A stretch of 64,000 nt of DNA from Aquisalinus luteolus (lineage in GTDB: Bacteria > Pseudomonadota > Alphaproteobacteria > Caulobacterales > Parvularculaceae): contig NZ_VCJR02000002.1 of the NCBI RefSeq assembly GCF_009712425.2, positions 1 to 64,000 of the forward strand, given 5' to 3'. Every line of letters starts with the position of its first letter. Position 1 is the stretch's first letter. This document shows positions 208-6,069 of this stretch, piece by piece. The notes below the pieces were generated by a model that did not search any database, had not been told where the DNA came from, and saw only the letters and a program-made list of their open reading frames with translations. Position numbers and translations under genes: made by a program.

Positions 208-1173
208 ATGAATGAAGAGACCAAAATTGATGAGTTGCCACAAGTTTCGAGCTTGTTGACCGGCACTATACGGGGCGGGACGAAAATTACAGATGTCCAT
301 TTGAAAGAGTTAAGCACAGGCCTTGCCGTCGAAGACACAAGAACGAGCGTCAATTGCTATCGGCTCCCAATCGATAAACATGGTCGTGTCAGATTTAAGC
401 CCTTGGCAGAATTTCTAAGAGAAAGAATTGTCGATTATGCCATCCCGCGGCGCCGTATTGATGAAGCGAAGAAGCATCTGAATGAGACAGGCTCCACTGC
501 TCAATTATCAAAGCTCGAAAAAGAAGCGAAGAAGCTATTCACTTCGCTGAGCCAAAGTGGAGAAGGCGGCGAGCTTATGGTCTTCGCGTTTGCAGAGGCC
601 GTTTTTGGTTTGTCACAGATCATATGCAAGATGAGCCTAAAGACATCTACTGAGATGCACTACCATGGCGCTGACGGTGTTTATGCAGAAGGCACCGATG
701 ATGGAGGCCTCAATGTGTATTGGGGAGAATCAAAGTTGTATGGTGACCCATCAGATGCGGTAAGAGATTGCCTCAAGTCTTTAGCACCTTTTCTTATTGA
801 TCCAGATGGAGACGATTCTGCGCGTTCTCAAGATGTTTTTCTGATCAATGAGTTTGCCAGCTTTGACGATCCAAAACTCACGGAAGGGCTAAAAAGATAT
901 TTTGATTTGGATGATCAAAAATCCTTATCGTTGCACCATTGTGGCATCGCATTAATTGGATTCGATACAACTTCTTATTTGAAGGACGGTGAAAACAGCG
1001 ATGAATTGAAACTGGAGGCCGAACTAAATGAACAAATTCCAGCTTGGGTTAAGCAAATAAAAAACCGAGTCGGTAAAGAAAATATAGCCTCTTATGATAT
1101 AAATTTCATCTGTGTACCAATGCGCACAGTCGAAGAATTCAGAAAATACTTTTTAAGCCTTTTGGAGAGCTAA
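208..1173 (+). CDS. hamA: Hachiman anti-phage defence nuclease HamA (DUF1837)
   Basis: A 321-residue protein with the DUF1837 layout of HamA, the effector nuclease of Hachiman defence. In the family HamA forms a complex with the helicase HamB and degrades DNA when activated. Seen in the sequence: a PD-(D/E)xK-like core with GEGGE (E122 after the glycines), HGADG (D156) and YWGESK (E174, K176), the expected acidic-acidic-lysine arrangement. The N-terminal 115 residues are charged and helical. The next gene, a DEAD-like helicase, starts one base after this stop, which is the standard hamA-hamB order. The start at 208 is the first in-frame ATG before the conserved region; its ribosome site is weak and A-rich. 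The preceding 207 bases hold no recognisable gene. Base composition is much richer in A+T than the chromosomal genes after 6.2 kb, indicating transfer. Confidence 0.88.
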   Translation: MNEETKIDELPQVSSLLTGTIRGGTKITDVHLKELSTGLAVEDTRTSVNCYRLPIDKHGRVRFKPLAEFLRERIVDYAIPRRRIDEAKKHLNETGSTAQLSKLEKEAKKLFTSLSQSGEGGELMVFAFAEAVFGLSQIICKMSLKTSTEMHYHGADGVYAEGTDDGGLNVYWGESKLYGDPSDAVRDCLKSLAPFLIDPDGDDSARSQDVFLINEFASFDDPKLTEGLKRYFDLDDQKSLSLHHCGIALIGFDTTSYLKDGENSDELKLEAELNEQIPAWVKQIKNRVGKENIASYDINFICVPMRTVEEFRKYFLSLLES

Positions 1174-1174
1174 G

Positions 1175-3799
1175 GTGGGTCTCGAAGTCATTCAAGAATG
1201 GTTGGTTGGACCAGATGGCATCAAGGAAGAGTTGGACCGTCTTAGGTTATGGTCAGCGGCCCTGAGTTTTGGTCCTGATACTATTCGGCATGACAATCTG
1301 ACCTCTGAGCATGACTGGAAAAGGCTTTTGTTTGCGGCCAGCATTTTGGCACAAAGCGAAGATCGTGAAGCTCAAGAATACGCGTTAATGGTGGCGGAAG
1401 CCGCAATTTGCTTTTCAGAAGATCGAATCTTTCAAGACGCTGGCGGCTTAATTTTAACAAGGCTTTCTAATCATCGAGCAGTTCAGTTAGCGCAAGAACG
1501 TGAATTTTTAAAACCTAATCTTGAAAGTCGTACTGGAACTATAGAACAGCTCCTTCTCACGCGGAGACGACTGCAATCTGAAATCCTGCTGAATGAGAAT
1601 GATTCTATCTTGGGAAATAGGTTTCAGAATGAGTTGTGGTCCAGTCTAGCGACTTCACATTGGCTCTCTGCTACTGCACCTACTGCCGCAGGAAAAACTT
1701 ATGCTGTGTTGAACTGGCTCTTGCTTCAACATGCAACAGGAAAAGCAAAATCATCTGTATTTGTCGCCCCGACCCGGGCGCTGGTTTCAGAAGTTGAGCA
1801 CCAGCTAAATCAACTCAAACTAAACCATGAGCTGAACAAACTCACTATTACCTCCCTTCCAATAAATGAGATTGATTCTGACGATAAGCCTTTCATCGCC
1901 GTTTTCACGCAAGAACGACTTCATATATTTTTGAACGCAAAACCACAGCCACATCCTTTTGACATCGCAATTATCGATGAAGCTCAAAAACTATCAGACG
2001 AGCGCAGAGGGGTAATCTTGCAGGATGCAATAGAAAGAGTTACTCGTGCTAATGAGCAGTGCAGACTCATTTTTTTGAGTCCTCATAGCGAGAATCCTGA
2101 CGTTCTTTTGGAAGAAGCGCCTAGCGGAGTAACCACTGCAGTTGTTCCGAGCAATACCGCCACCGTCATGCAAAATGTTATGGTTGCGGAACAGGTACGT
2201 GGAAATACAAAAGAATGGACCCTCTCTCTTTCTACCAATGACGGATTTAAACCGCTCGGCGGATTCTCGCTGTTTGACCGGCCAACCTCTGTCAGGAAGA
2301 GAATGGCCTTCGTTGCTCTTGCGCTAGGCAAAGAGACTTCTGGCACTCTTATTTATGTTACCACGGCCGACTCAGCCGAGCGAGTTGCAGGCCTGATTTA
2401 TGACGGACTGGCAGATGAAGAAATTAGTGACGACGAAGAACTAAATGATCTTTCTGAGTTCTGTGACAAAATTATCCATCCAAAATTTCAATTAGTACAT
2501 CTCGTTAAGCGTGGAGTCGCTTTCCATTACGGCAATATGCCTTCGCTTCTGCGCGAGGAAATTGAACGGCTTTTCACTGCCGGCAAAATTCGTTTTTTGG
2601 TGTCTACTTCAACTCTCATCGAGGGAGTGAATTTGGCTTGTAGAACCATCATAATAAGAGGCCCCAAAAAGGGTATTGGCCGAGACATGTCTCCACAAGA
2701 TTTTTGGAATTTAGCAGGACGTGCTGGCCGGTGGGGAGCCGACTTTTACGGGAATATTGTTTGTGTTGATGTTAGTAAACCGGCTGTTTGGCCACAAGGG
2801 TTACCCAATAAGACTGCATATCCTATTCGCCGTGAAACGGATCAGGTTATCGAGCAATTTGATGATCTTTCTGAATATCTTTCTCAGCGTACAGAAATGA
2901 AAACAGAAGCTGTAAACGGGAAGCTTGAGCATGTAGCCGCCTACTTAATGAGTTGGCAATATCGCGAAGGCTCTCTCAGAAACGCCCCTCCAGTAAAAAA
3001 ACTAAGCGAAGATAGGGCTAATCAGCTCGAAGAGCTGATTAAGCCATCGCTCGAAGCAATTGAAATAAGCCAGGAGATCGTAGATGCGAACCCTGGAATT
3101 TCGATTGTAGCATTACAGCGTCTGTTAACATATTTCAGAGACTTCTCTGCTGACCCAAAGTTATTGCTCCCCATCCCTCCGGAAGATGAGGAATCTGTGA
3201 ACCGATTTGTGTTCATATTTGATGTAATAAATTTAACCCTCGCCCCCGTCTTTGCGCCAGAACAACGCGTGTTGCCTTGTGCGCTAACAACTTGGGACTG
3301 GATGCGAGGCAAAACGCTGGGGCAGATGATAAAAGCCCGACTGAAACGTGAAAGAGCTAAACCTGAATACCAGTCAGACGAAGAGCTTCCTTATGCAAAA
3401 TTTATTCGTGACACAATGGCTGCGGTTGAGGAAATAGCGAGATTCTTAGCGCCAAAGTATCTGGGTGCATATCTATCAGTGTTAAGACAAAACTTTCACG
3501 AAAGAGGAATTTCTGAAGAATTTCCTGATGATCTCACATATGATCTGTTCTTGGAATTCGGAGTAAGCACCCGGACATTGATTACGCTGATTAGCCTCGG
3601 CCTATCGCGCACAAGTTCAATCGAATTGAGTGACTACCTAGGGCGTACCGATTTAAATGAGATCGAGGTATTACAGAGACTAGAACGGGGAGAATGGGAA
3701 TCTTTAGATTTACCTGCGTTAGTGAAGCGTGAAATTCGTCGTGTCATTGAGCAAAAAAAGCTCGAGAACTCAGCTGACTCTAATATGGAGCAAAACTGA
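1175..3799 (+). CDS. hamB: Hachiman helicase HamB
   Basis: An 874-residue superfamily 2 helicase, the ATP-driven partner of HamA. Visible motifs are Walker A APTAAGKT (168-175), motif Ia VAPTRALV (197-204), a DEAQ box (268-271), STSTLIEGVNL (476-486) and NLAGRAGRWG (511-520), the last being the arginine-finger motif VI. The long helical C-terminus (about 540-874) has no motif I can name. The start is GTG at 1175, one base after the hamA stop, with GGAG about nine bases upstream inside the end of hamA, so the two are probably translated from one mRNA. The stop TGA shares its last base with the ATG of the next gene. Known of the family: HamB senses or loads on DNA and licenses HamA cleavage. 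Composition is A+T-rich like hamA. Confidence 0.88.
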   Translation: MGLEVIQEWLVGPDGIKEELDRLRLWSAALSFGPDTIRHDNLTSEHDWKRLLFAASILAQSEDREAQEYALMVAEAAICFSEDRIFQDAGGLILTRLSNHRAVQLAQEREFLKPNLESRTGTIEQLLLTRRRLQSEILLNENDSILGNRFQNELWSSLATSHWLSATAPTAAGKTYAVLNWLLLQHATGKAKSSVFVAPTRALVSEVEHQLNQLKLNHELNKLTITSLPINEIDSDDKPFIAVFTQERLHIFLNAKPQPHPFDIAIIDEAQKLSDERRGVILQDAIERVTRANEQCRLIFLSPHSENPDVLLEEAPSGVTTAVVPSNTATVMQNVMVAEQVRGNTKEWTLSLSTNDGFKPLGGFSLFDRPTSVRKRMAFVALALGKETSGTLIYVTTADSAERVAGLIYDGLADEEISDDEELNDLSEFCDKIIHPKFQLVHLVKRGVAFHYGNMPSLLREEIERLFTAGKIRFLVSTSTLIEGVNLACRTIIIRGPKKGIGRDMSPQDFWNLAGRAGRWGADFYGNIVCVDVSKPAVWPQGLPNKTAYPIRRETDQVIEQFDDLSEYLSQRTEMKTEAVNGKLEHVAAYLMSWQYREGSLRNAPPVKKLSEDRANQLEELIKPSLEAIEISQEIVDANPGISIVALQRLLTYFRDFSADPKLLLPIPPEDEESVNRFVFIFDVINLTLAPVFAPEQRVLPCALTTWDWMRGKTLGQMIKARLKRERAKPEYQSDEELPYAKFIRDTMAAVEEIARFLAPKYLGAYLSVLRQNFHERGISEEFPDDLTYDLFLEFGVSTRTLITLISLGLSRTSSIELSDYLGRTDLNEIEVLQRLERGEWESLDLPALVKREIRRVIEQKKLENSADSNMEQN

Positions 3800-4089
3800 T
3801 GGCTAAAGGGAAAGTAGTAAAAATTGACGGTGTGCTTTTCGAGCGAAAAGGCGATGCAATGGCACACTTAAGAACAATGTTAAATAGCTATGAGCTTGAG
3901 CAACGGGTGTCAGAAAAAGACCAATCATTTTTGTTAGACGCAATTAGAAACCATCCCGAATCCGAAGAAAAGATTGGTTCTGGCATTGATCATTTTTTCG
4001 TCCGTAGGGCTGATTATGGGACGCGATGTTTTTGGATCCGACGGGTGGACGGTAGCGAAGAGCGTTTTTCATACAAGAGCTGCGTATGA
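3799..4089 (+). CDS. Small DUF3223 (DCL-like) protein coupled to Hachiman
   Basis: A 96-residue protein whose second half fits the DUF3223 pattern: HPESEEKIGSGI (about 52-63), then TRCFWIRRVDGS and FSYKSCV at the C-terminus. The same fold occurs in plant DCL proteins, which act in plastid rRNA maturation, and at the C-terminus of plant RNA polymerase IV/V large subunits, so a link to nucleic acid is plausible. The first 50 residues are basic and helical. Its ATG overlaps the hamB TGA by one base, so it should be translationally coupled to hamB and made with the defence proteins. I know of no role for DUF3223 in Hachiman. It could be an accessory, regulator or self-protection factor, or a passenger. 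The gene call is firm; function is unknown. Confidence 0.8.
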   Translation: MAKGKVVKIDGVLFERKGDAMAHLRTMLNSYELEQRVSEKDQSFLLDAIRNHPESEEKIGSGIDHFFVRRADYGTRCFWIRRVDGSEERFSYKSCV

Positions 4090-4296
4090 GAATGACGCAC
4101 TGATATGCTCGACGATTTTAAACCATACCAATTTTTATAGACCCGTATTTTACATAGGGGCTTTGCCCCTCGCGCGGGCAAGGCATCCAAACGTATCCAC
4201 GCCTGACGGCGCGGAGCCTCGTTCGGAGCCTCCTTGCCCACGGCACACCCCATTCTTCGCCAGAATGGCAGAGGGTTGCAGGGCAACCCTTGCTTT
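4090..4296. other. Intergenic region between Hachiman and mobilization genes
   Basis: About 200 bases separate the end of the DUF3223 gene from the convergent relaxase gene. It contains a short hairpin AGGGGC-TTT-GCCCCT at 4156-4170 and a G+C-rich stretch, then the terminator listed separately. The A+T-rich island composition changes to G+C-rich here, suggesting two modules of different origin were joined. No coding frame here is convincing. An origin of transfer could lie here, but I see no recognised nick motif. Confidence 0.4.
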
Positions 4297-4298
4297 TT
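4272..4298 (+). terminator. Rho-independent terminator of the Hachiman operon
   Basis: Perfect 8-bp stem AGGGTTGC (4272-4279) and GCAACCCT (4283-4290) with a 3-base loop, followed by TGCTTTTT. It lies downstream of the DUF3223 gene and ends on the stop codon of the convergent relaxase gene. Confidence 0.6.
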
Positions 4299-5667
4299 AT
4301 CTTTCAAGGCCGTGGCCACGGTCGCGCGATGATCTGACTTGCGGGCGTTGGCGAGGTTCGCGCAAACGCGCCAGGTATTCCCTCCGCTTGTCGGCCTGAT
4401 CGTTGAAGACTTCCCTCGGCGCTCTCTTCTCCGGCGGCTTTTCCTGTTCGCGTTGCGGCTCTTTACCTTCCCGTCGATAGCGGGCCAGCTCCCGGTGAAC
4501 TTCCGTCACCTCTTTCAGATGTTTGCGCCGTTCCATCTTGATCGGCACTTGCAGGGCATGCCGCTGGAATAGCTGCCGGGCGATCATGTCCGTGCGCTCT
4601 TTGCGGTCGCGCTGCATGGCGGCTTCGGCCTGCCGCTCATTTTCCTGCACGATTTTGGAGCGCTTGCCCGTCACCCGATCCCAAAGACCGAAGAAGCCGG
4701 AGCGCAGTTTCGCGGCCCTCTCCAGCACCTCCCGCTTGGCGCGGTCATCCTGCTGGCTTTGCAGGCTGGCGCGCTCAGCCCGATGCTTTTCAGTCACCTT
4801 GGTCTTTTGCGCGATTAGCGGCTCCATACGCTTTTTGGAGCGTTCATCCGCTTCACGCAGCCAGCCTTGAGCAACGGGAGTCATTTCCCGCGCCATAGTT
4901 TGCTTTGCCTGATCGACCGAAGGCAGCTCTTGCGGTTTGCCAAGTCGTGCCTCCAGCTCGGCTTTCTCGCCGATATAGCGCGACAGCGACAGCGCTTCGC
5001 CACCATAGGAGACAGCCACGAAGCCCCGGCGATCCCCCTTCGCGAGTTTCAGCCCGTGGTCCTGCAGCGCCGCCTCGAAACTCGCCCGGCTATCGGAGAT
5101 CGCCCAGCAATCCTGCAGGACATGCTTCAGATCGCCCGCATGTTTGCCCATGCGCTTGGCCTGCTGCCATTGGTCCAGCGTGAAATTGCGCGGGTCGGCG
5201 TTCCCGCGCTCGATCAGGCCGCGCGGCATTTGCCAGCCATGCTCTCGGTATAACTCGCGGGAGACTTCCTGCAGCTTGCTCTTGGAATAGGAAAGCTGGA
5301 TCGCCTTCATTTCCTCTGCATCGATCCGCGACCAGACCGCATGACAGTGACGGCGGCCTTCCTTTTCATGAAAGACGATGGCGCGGGGTTGGCCCGTCAG
5401 GCCGAGGCGTGTTTCGGCTTTGGTGACGGCCTGCTCGAATTGTTCATCGCTGACCGCCTTGCCTTCCGGCGGATTGAGCGAGAGCGAGAACAGGAATTGC
5501 CTGCAGCGCGTACCGCGTGAGATCGCTTGCACCTCGTTGAACGCCCCCGGCAGCGTGTCCGAGGCAAAGCCTGATATCTCATGCACATGGACATGCTCGT
5601 TTTCCGGCGACATGAGATGCCGGGCGAGGTCTTGCGCCCCGCCGCGTTGATTACCGACCAAGATCAT
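4297..5667 (-). CDS. Relaxase / mobilization nuclease (VirD2-MobA type)
   Basis: A 456-residue relaxase-family protein that would nick the origin of transfer and pilot DNA during mobilization. The N-terminal domain (about 1-160) has the conserved NQRGG start and FLFSLSLNPP, then FHEKEGRRHCHAVWSR with H100, H107 and H109, the metal-binding histidine motif. The remainder (about 170-456) is charged and probably coiled coil. Oddly there is no tyrosine before Y127, although classical MOBP relaxases carry the nucleophile tyrosine within the first 30 residues. The start lies three bases after the MobC stop, so the two form one transcription unit in the usual relaxosome order. No conjugation pore genes are visible, so the element would be mobilizable rather than self-transmissible, unless such genes lie beyond the left edge. 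Confidence 0.82.
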   Translation of the reverse strand: MILVGNQRGGAQDLARHLMSPENEHVHVHEISGFASDTLPGAFNEVQAISRGTRCRQFLFSLSLNPPEGKAVSDEQFEQAVTKAETRLGLTGQPRAIVFHEKEGRRHCHAVWSRIDAEEMKAIQLSYSKSKLQEVSRELYREHGWQMPRGLIERGNADPRNFTLDQWQQAKRMGKHAGDLKHVLQDCWAISDSRASFEAALQDHGLKLAKGDRRGFVAVSYGGEALSLSRYIGEKAELEARLGKPQELPSVDQAKQTMAREMTPVAQGWLREADERSKKRMEPLIAQKTKVTEKHRAERASLQSQQDDRAKREVLERAAKLRSGFFGLWDRVTGKRSKIVQENERQAEAAMQRDRKERTDMIARQLFQRHALQVPIKMERRKHLKEVTEVHRELARYRREGKEPQREQEKPPEKRAPREVFNDQADKRREYLARLREPRQRPQVRSSRDRGHGLER

Positions 5668-5670
5668 AAA

Positions 5671-6069
5671 TCAGCTTTGCGACTTGATACCGAGCGCCGC
5701 GATCAGCTCTTCGCGCATCCGGCGTATATCGGCACAGGCCGAAGCCAGTTCATCGGTCAGATCAGGCGTGACCGGGAGCGTGCCGAGATTGGCGGCTTTG
5801 GCGATCTGGTTGAGGTTGGAAGACAGACGCGATTGGCCGAGCAGAGCCAGCGCCTTGCCGATGGCGGCTTCATCCGAGCGGGGTTTACGATAGGAACGGC
5901 GCGGCGTTTCCTGATCGCCGAACACCTTCTCGCGCACATAGGCATTGACCGAGCGCTGCCCGGCCAGCTCTTTGAGCAAGGCCCGTTCATTTTCGGAAAC
6001 GCGCAACGAGATCGGCGCAGGGCGTTTCTTCTTCGGCTTGGCGGCTTGATTGAAAGAATGGCAGGTCAT
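5671..6069 (-). CDS. mobC: MobC-like relaxosome accessory protein
   Basis: A 132-residue basic protein with the MobC pattern: a ribbon-helix-helix-like N-terminus (PISLRVSENERALLKELAG, about 19-37) and the characteristic LSSNLNQIAKAANLG box near residues 80-95. MobC proteins bind at oriT and help the relaxase open the strands. It lies immediately upstream of the relaxase gene with a three-base gap. The ATG at 6069 is preceded by GGAGG about ten bases upstream. The oriT would be expected near its 5' side, around 6070-6140, where a small inverted repeat TTCCAA (6112-6117) / TTGGAA (6129-6134) is present, but I cannot prove that is oriT. Confidence 0.82.
   Translation of the reverse strand: MTCHSFNQAAKPKKKRPAPISLRVSENERALLKELAGQRSVNAYVREKVFGDQETPRRSYRKPRSDEAAIGKALALLGQSRLSSNLNQIAKAANLGTLPVTPDLTDELASACADIRRMREELIAALGIKSQS

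Follow-up and report, generated by a model that had tools for sequence, protein, structure and literature searches.

A type II Hachiman operon of Aquisalinus luteolus and the recurrence of its HamC family in several ATPase cassettes

The first 64,000 nucleotides of contig NZ_VCJR02000002.1 of Aquisalinus luteolus (hereafter the window) carry a compact operon of three genes, hamA, hamB and hamC, whose products are predicted to be an effector nuclease, a superfamily-2 helicase and a small protein of the DUF3223/DCL family, and which almost certainly make up, on the strength of their profile matches, a complete Hachiman type II defence system (hamABC; Table 1). The three-gene operon put forward in the preliminary description is borne out by open reading frames and by matches in Pfam and PADLOC-DB, as is its tight packing, with a single base between hamA and hamB and a one-base overlap between the hamB stop and the hamC ATG (TGATG). 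The A+T-rich composition that the genes were said to share likewise holds, with guanine plus cytosine (GC) contents of 43.3, 45.1 and 43.3% for hamA, hamB and hamC, respectively, against 60.2% for positions 4300–64000, and 42, 40 and 40% at third codon positions. The terminator described after the third gene fared less well: a hairpin with a T-run does lie ~180 bp past the hamC stop, but such matches are not in excess of chance (four in this stretch, compared with a mean of 4.9 in shuffles).

Table 1. Features at the hamABC locus, in window positions (aa, amino acids; nt, nucleotides)
Feature	Position	Strand	Description	Evidence
hamA	208-1173	+	321 aa, HamA/DUF1837 effector nuclease family	Pfam HamA PF08878 5.4e-56; PADLOC HamA2 PDLC00196 4.9e-116
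hamB	1175-3799	+	874 aa, GTG start, superfamily-2 helicase/ATPase	PADLOC HamB2 PDLC00200 1077.9 bits; Pfam DEAD and Helicase_C
hamC	3799-4089	+	96 aa, DUF3223/DCL family	Pfam DUF3223 5.1e-25; PADLOC HamC2 1.6e-39
GGAG, Shine-Dalgarno-like	3787-3790	+	within hamB, 8 nt ahead of hamC ATG	read off the sequence
Terminator-like hairpin and T-run	4271-4291	+	9 pairs, between convergent hamC and relaxase gene	
MobA/VirD2-like relaxase gene	4297-5667	-	convergent to operon	Pfam
NikA-like mobilisation gene	5671-6069	-	convergent to operon	Pfam

The assignment to type II follows from the co-presence of a HamA gene, an adjacent HamB helicase gene and an abutting DUF3223 gene, whose products find their best PADLOC-DB matches in the type II models HamA2, HamB2 and HamC2. 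The HamA translation keeps an intact D...GESK, in agreement with the D-GEXK nuclease motif named for this family (PMC12799240), and in HamB we read the motif stretches APTAAGKT, DEAQ and AGRAGRWG; HamC passes the Pfam DUF3223 cut-off (PF11523) and has the fold of Protein Data Bank (PDB) entry 2k0m. The operon consists of HamA, a superfamily-2 helicase and DUF3223 only, with no ABC/SMC-like ATPase or middle component such as would place it in ABC-3C/Lamassu. Searched against PDB sequences, HamA gave no match up to an E-value of 1. The best profile match of HamB among the chains listed was 9wh1_B (also 9whk and 9whu; 2.7e-62 over ~665 positions), a chain whose PDB name is ‘DNA polymerase theta (Helicase domain only)’ but which may be a bacterial protein of HamB type, oddly named.

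Hachiman had been taken in the preliminary description to be a two-gene system, a view that is outdated: hamAB with a DUF3223 gene, the product of which was named HamC, was defined as type II in 2021, when PADLOC counted 379 systems with such a gene (3.8% of Hachiman) (PMC8565338). The type II system of Sphingopyxis witflariensis, the contig of which we also recovered among the relatives of our operon (L052), reduces the plating of phages on E. coli, and the role of HamC in defence was left open in that paper (PMC8565338), the only one in the open-licence PMC text searched to join Hachiman with DUF3223.

The co-occurrence of DUF3223 with hamB, proposed as a test in the preliminary description, proved strongly positive in several samples. 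Across the 385 genomes of a class-level sample, DUF3223 was found in five and HamA in 13, and all five DUF3223 genes lay within ~6 kb of HamA; with the window's own genome set aside, four of four did so (p ~6e-7 by our own arithmetic, which ignores relatedness). A scan of GTDB-based genome contigs, for which eight short HamCs were aligned and one peptide pattern was used and which therefore reached near short-form relatives only, returned 63 loci: 45 with both hamA and hamB (not every copy intact, e.g. L085), three with hamB only, ten with an ABC-3C ATPase, two at contig edges and three others, so that hamB stood upstream of the short-form HamC in 48 of the 63. In all but one of the 45 hamAB loci, the gap between hamB and hamC was −11 to +51 bp; the exception, with 1348 bp, was L069, which is the same place as G028 of the class sample, such that the two samples overlap. 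On plasmids, 32 records with a HamB relative split evenly into near (40.6–44.2% identity) and distant (≤30.3%) halves. All 16 near HamBs (seven loci opened) were followed by DUF3223 no further than ~160 bp past the end of the HamB match, in six cases by a short form such as that of the window and in ten by a long form, whereas at the limits used DUF3223 was found in none of the 16 distant records (one opened, with none after hamB); the plasmid records are interdependent, several being near-copies within one genus. A HamB search of viral contigs found two loci only, neither with DUF3223, one of them (L137) with a HamB at 36% identity.

A phylum-level sample of 398 genomes held DUF3223 in seven, three times beside HamB (G000, G028 and G361, all three also in the class sample), once after an SbcC-like ATPase (G617), once at a contig end with no upstream sequence (G472), once broken and intergenic (G440) and once as a weak match of 24.5 bits (G684). 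HamB2 was matched at E ≤1e-30 in nine genomes of this sample, of which only G000, G028 and G361 had DUF3223. In the samples seen, then, DUF3223 accompanies one HamAB clade and is absent outside it. A passenger caught in the operon would be in keeping with the existence of DUF3223 genes that stand apart from such ATPases (L133, L134 and L135), but this reading is contradicted by the plasmid contrast of 16/16 against 0/16 and by the tight spacing in 44 of the 45 loci. Selection speaks against it too: compared with the Thalassospira copy (L035), per-codon differences at positions 1/2/3 were.27/.18/.53 in hamC,.19/.10/.58 in hamB and.22/.13/.56 in hamA, and because those of hamC fall mainly on third positions they fit purifying selection. 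We therefore rejected the passenger reading, to which we leave a very slim chance. Shortened hamC stretches without hamAB were seen at L093 and L097, in both cases ahead of one and the same 473-aa protein, and a 473-aa DUF2235 gene lies downstream of hamABC at L019, a recurrence that suggests loss of hamAB at L093 and L097. No HamB–HamC fusion appeared in the open reading frame table or in the annotated hamAB loci opened, although no systematic search was made.

The same small family also closes other ATPase cassettes. ABC-3C, which a review assigns to the Lamassu superfamily (PMC10586767), ends in DUF3223 at ten of the 63 genome loci, on plasmids of Ensifer (L029) and Agrobacterium (L021) and on a viral contig (L098), which encodes the same HamC sequence as L038. 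In the ten genome loci the gap from ATPase to DUF3223 was −23 to +20 bp, the ATPase frame being broken in L037 and partially matched in L042; at L029, the proteins upstream of DUF3223 matched MC5 (3.1e-53), CTD9 (5.2e-35) and an LmuB-like ATPase (9.4e-46). The ABC-3C HamCs of L037, L038, L041, L042 and L029 are 55–58% identical to the HamC of the window, and those of L021, L065 and L088 42–47%. DUF3223 was present in two of the 14 plasmid records with an ABC-3C-type ATPase. A search for MC5 in the window's own genome gave no match, and was uninformative since the control gave none either.

Three further kinds of cassette carry a long-form DUF3223 gene in the same last position, two of them named after PADLOC candidate systems (PDC-S06 and PDC-M23). 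At L131 the gene ahead of the long form encodes a PDC-S06/AAA_13 ATPase and overlaps it by one base, and on plasmids of Ensifer canadensis (L132) and Rhizobium phaseoli (L139) a long form follows a 1050-aa helicase that matches PDC-M23B (6.9e-179) and, more weakly, HamB1 (3.9e-79); neither PADLOC nor Pfam gave a match for the 286-aa neighbour upstream of the helicase in L132. SbcC/SMC-like ATPases precede a long form in Bradyrhizobium (L022 and, as a shortened copy, L026) and in genome G617 (L127), and two further plasmid pairs of this kind, one a fragment, were recognised from coordinates, while a fifth plasmid record of the ATPase lacked DUF3223. Out of 43 plasmid records with DUF3223 in the union of our searches, 25 had it directly after such an ATPase (16 hamAB, two ABC-3C, four SbcC-like, one PDC-S06 and two PDC-M23B-type). 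The HamC family is thus the last gene of five cassette kinds on two ATPase folds, with weak kinship inside each fold: the superfamily-2 helicase fold (Hachiman type II and PDC-M23B-type) and the ABC/SMC type (ABC-3C/Lamassu-like, PDC-S06 and SbcC-like). The sharing of HamC with ABC-3C, PDC-S06, PDC-M23B-type or SbcC-like cassettes did not turn up in the open-licence PMC text searched, although DUF3223 was not combined with every one of these names. DUF3223 genes in other settings include one downstream of the BREX genes pglZ and brxL in Polaromonas (L135, 4986–5303), one upstream of a UvrD-like helicase gene in Streptomyces (L136, 4833–5558) and one directly ahead of a Prim-Pol/DUF3987 gene in Sinorhizobium phage AP-16-3 (L028, 5959–6624), a phage-side occurrence of the domain.

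An unrooted tree of 66 short HamCs (98 columns) placed 13 ABC-3C rows on one side of a branch (98/90). The HamC of the window and those of its hamAB relatives L035, L036, L039 and L040 join these rows (100/98), apart from the 48 other hamAB rows, and the HamBs of the two hamAB groups are 42–43% identical to the HamB of the window. Because the window group sits with ABC-3C HamCs, HamC has switched partner type at least once, in one direction or the other. A larger tree, which takes in distant long forms, omitted L030 (the same place as L069), L031 (a near-copy of L079), the viral long forms L099 and L100, and L097 (62 aa, too short); the 66-row tree additionally omitted 11 rows that bore neither a hamAB nor an ABC-3C label.

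In the short form, 2k0m, a protein of unknown function, is the sole clear structural match, and no catalytic set is recognised. Residues that do not vary in HamC include K58, W79 and R82 in the numbering of this copy. The long form is extended at its C terminus by ~140 residues, in which the pattern C..TG..DH..P is conserved in part and a histidine further on is nearly invariant (e.g. L101, 5592–6329), and it takes the place of the short form after hamB in rhizobial and Bartonella plasmids. Such a replacement is what would be expected if HamC worked away from the ATPase to widen or change the defence, being itself an effector or enzyme, but the DH pattern is not kept throughout the long forms, the extra part matched nothing among PDB sequences up to an E-value of 1, and the short form offers no recognised active site, which together make this role improbable in our estimation. 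An AlphaFold2 model of one long-form protein (mean predicted local distance difference test score, pLDDT, 44.7, from a four-row alignment) was not used. There is one parallel among the eukaryotic relatives of the family: loss of the DeCL domain, a homologue of HamC, from plant RNA polymerase (Pol) V left transcription in vitro unaffected and transcripts in vivo undetectable (PMC6753486). Loss of DUF3223 from Tetrahymena Mlp1 impaired the maturation of suppressor tRNA and nearly abolished tRNA-mediated suppression (PMC9705548). No plant DeCL chain was among the VIA-align matches listed for HamC, which says nothing either way.

In two-gene Hachiman, HamB senses damaged DNA and constrains HamA (PMC12278908). 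By analogy, HamA of the window would be the nuclease effector and the HamB helicase would survey DNA, freeing HamA upon damage or on meeting phage intermediates. HamC, small and with no enzyme motif that we recognise, would be an accessory produced in step with HamB through translational coupling. Since its partners comprise two ATPase folds and differing effectors, we infer that HamC may serve the DNA-sensing ATPase step; and as one conserved small protein with varied partners, it would more probably read a ligand common to them (a feature of DNA or RNA, or a protein of host or phage) than be tailored to one nuclease. Most likely HamC would recognise something shared by several defence ATPases, whether a feature of the substrate or a factor from host or phage, and so steer activation to invader DNA or hold it back on host DNA. 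An accessory acting at the DNA-sensing/ATPase step is, at somewhat under even odds, our favoured candidate for the mechanism. We hold about as tentatively that HamC-type DUF3223 might be a portable specificity or licensing module with the same job in all five cassettes, one related to that of DeCL in plant Pol IV and V.

The main rival is a safeguard role, in which HamC, in the manner of an immunity or antitoxin protein, would hold the nuclease-helicase in check by binding HamB or HamA as long as the cell is uninfected, phage infection then lifting the restraint. A small protein encoded last in the operon and apparently translationally coupled for a fixed ratio would suit this role, and at L040, L064, L069 and L079 hamB is interrupted or split into frames (sequencing errors are possible) and hamC is open at normal length, which fits a protein harmless on its own. 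An inhibitor of one nuclease, however, would not be expected to recur with superfamily-2 helicases and with ABC/SMC-like ATPases and such varied partners; relatives of both Hachiman and ABC-3C manage without HamC, and in the two-gene system HamB already supplies the constraint (PMC12278908). We consider the safeguard unlikely, at roughly one chance in four. A dedicated neutraliser of HamA is less likely than a general ATPase accessory because the partner nucleases differ or none is recognised, and a specific HamA immunity protein was rejected as the leading idea on this diversity of partners.

Taken as a whole, the explanation that a Hachiman type II operon carries HamC as a portable accessory of the DNA-sensing ATPase step seems to us about evenly balanced between right and wrong, and a number of observations weigh against it. 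Neither system seems to depend on HamC: HamAB at ≤36% identity lacks it (L137 and H35), as do two ABC-3C relatives (46% and 31%) that we opened, so that both Hachiman and ABC-3C can do without it. The type I PADLOC models match the operon nearly as well as those of type II (HamA1 PDLC00163, 1.1e-115; HamB1 PDLC00186, 1000.7 bits), and near relatives without a recognised HamC therefore probably exist. Eighteen of the 43 plasmid DUF3223 records were not placed beside such an ATPase (eight opened and ten unopened). Some of the partner ATPases are also interdependent: the helicase of PDC-M23B type matches HamB models, and the ABC/SMC-like ATPases share weak LmuB matches. The ABC-3C grouping in the HamC tree becomes weak (58/5) once distant long forms are added. 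HamC carries almost no net charge (+1 in this copy; over 37 sequences, a mean of +1.6 and a median isoelectric point of 7.8), and its composition thus gives no hint of non-specific nucleic-acid binding. Among the relatives, the DeCL domain of Pol IV is not essential, yet it raises levels of small interfering RNA (PMC6753486), and Mlp1 without DUF3223 binds its RNA targets unchanged (PMC9705548), a result that, as we analyse it, cuts both ways for the role of HamC.

The window begins at the first base of the contig, and the operon stands at that contig end, with two convergent mobilisation genes adjoining it on the other side (Table 1). Together with the GC content of 43–45% against ~60%, this arrangement suggests that the operon may be on a mobilisable element.

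As an operon, hamABC of the window is unremarkable, belonging to a subtype on record since 2021 and so to an already known kind. The modest new point is that the HamC family also ends other defence cassettes, suggesting a portable part of DNA-patrolling systems. Partner exchange narrows the role of HamC, since a family that pairs with superfamily-2 helicases as well as with ABC/SMC-like ATPases is improbable as an inhibitor dedicated to HamA and more likely reads something met by all these machines; an answer may also inform the function of the DeCL domain in plant silencing polymerases.

Compared with known systems, the operon shares its three families with Hachiman type II, from which we found no structural difference, although this copy is less usual in its spacing, the one-base hamB–hamC overlap occurring in three of the 45 hamAB loci and gaps of 10–28 bp in 34, and in a HamC that, unlike most type II HamCs, clusters with those of ABC-3C. 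Hachiman type I (hamAB) has the same nuclease and helicase families and lacks the DUF3223 gene, type I-like examples being viral contig L137 and the 16 plasmid records with a distant HamB (tblastn). In ABC-3C, one sub-clade has a last gene of the HamC family, as here, and an LmuB-like ATPase, MC5 and CTD9 upstream replace HamA and HamB. The HamM nuclease-protease module sets a precedent for an accessory module common to Hachiman, Lamassu and other unrelated systems (PMC12799240); it is a nuclease activated by a protease fused to HamA and, unlike HamC, has no DUF3223. The DeCL domains of plant Pol IV and V are sequence homologues of HamC (2.1e-10 and 2.2e-07; by profile, 4e-17 and 8.6e-14), but they are fused to the largest subunits of RNA polymerases that act in gene silencing.

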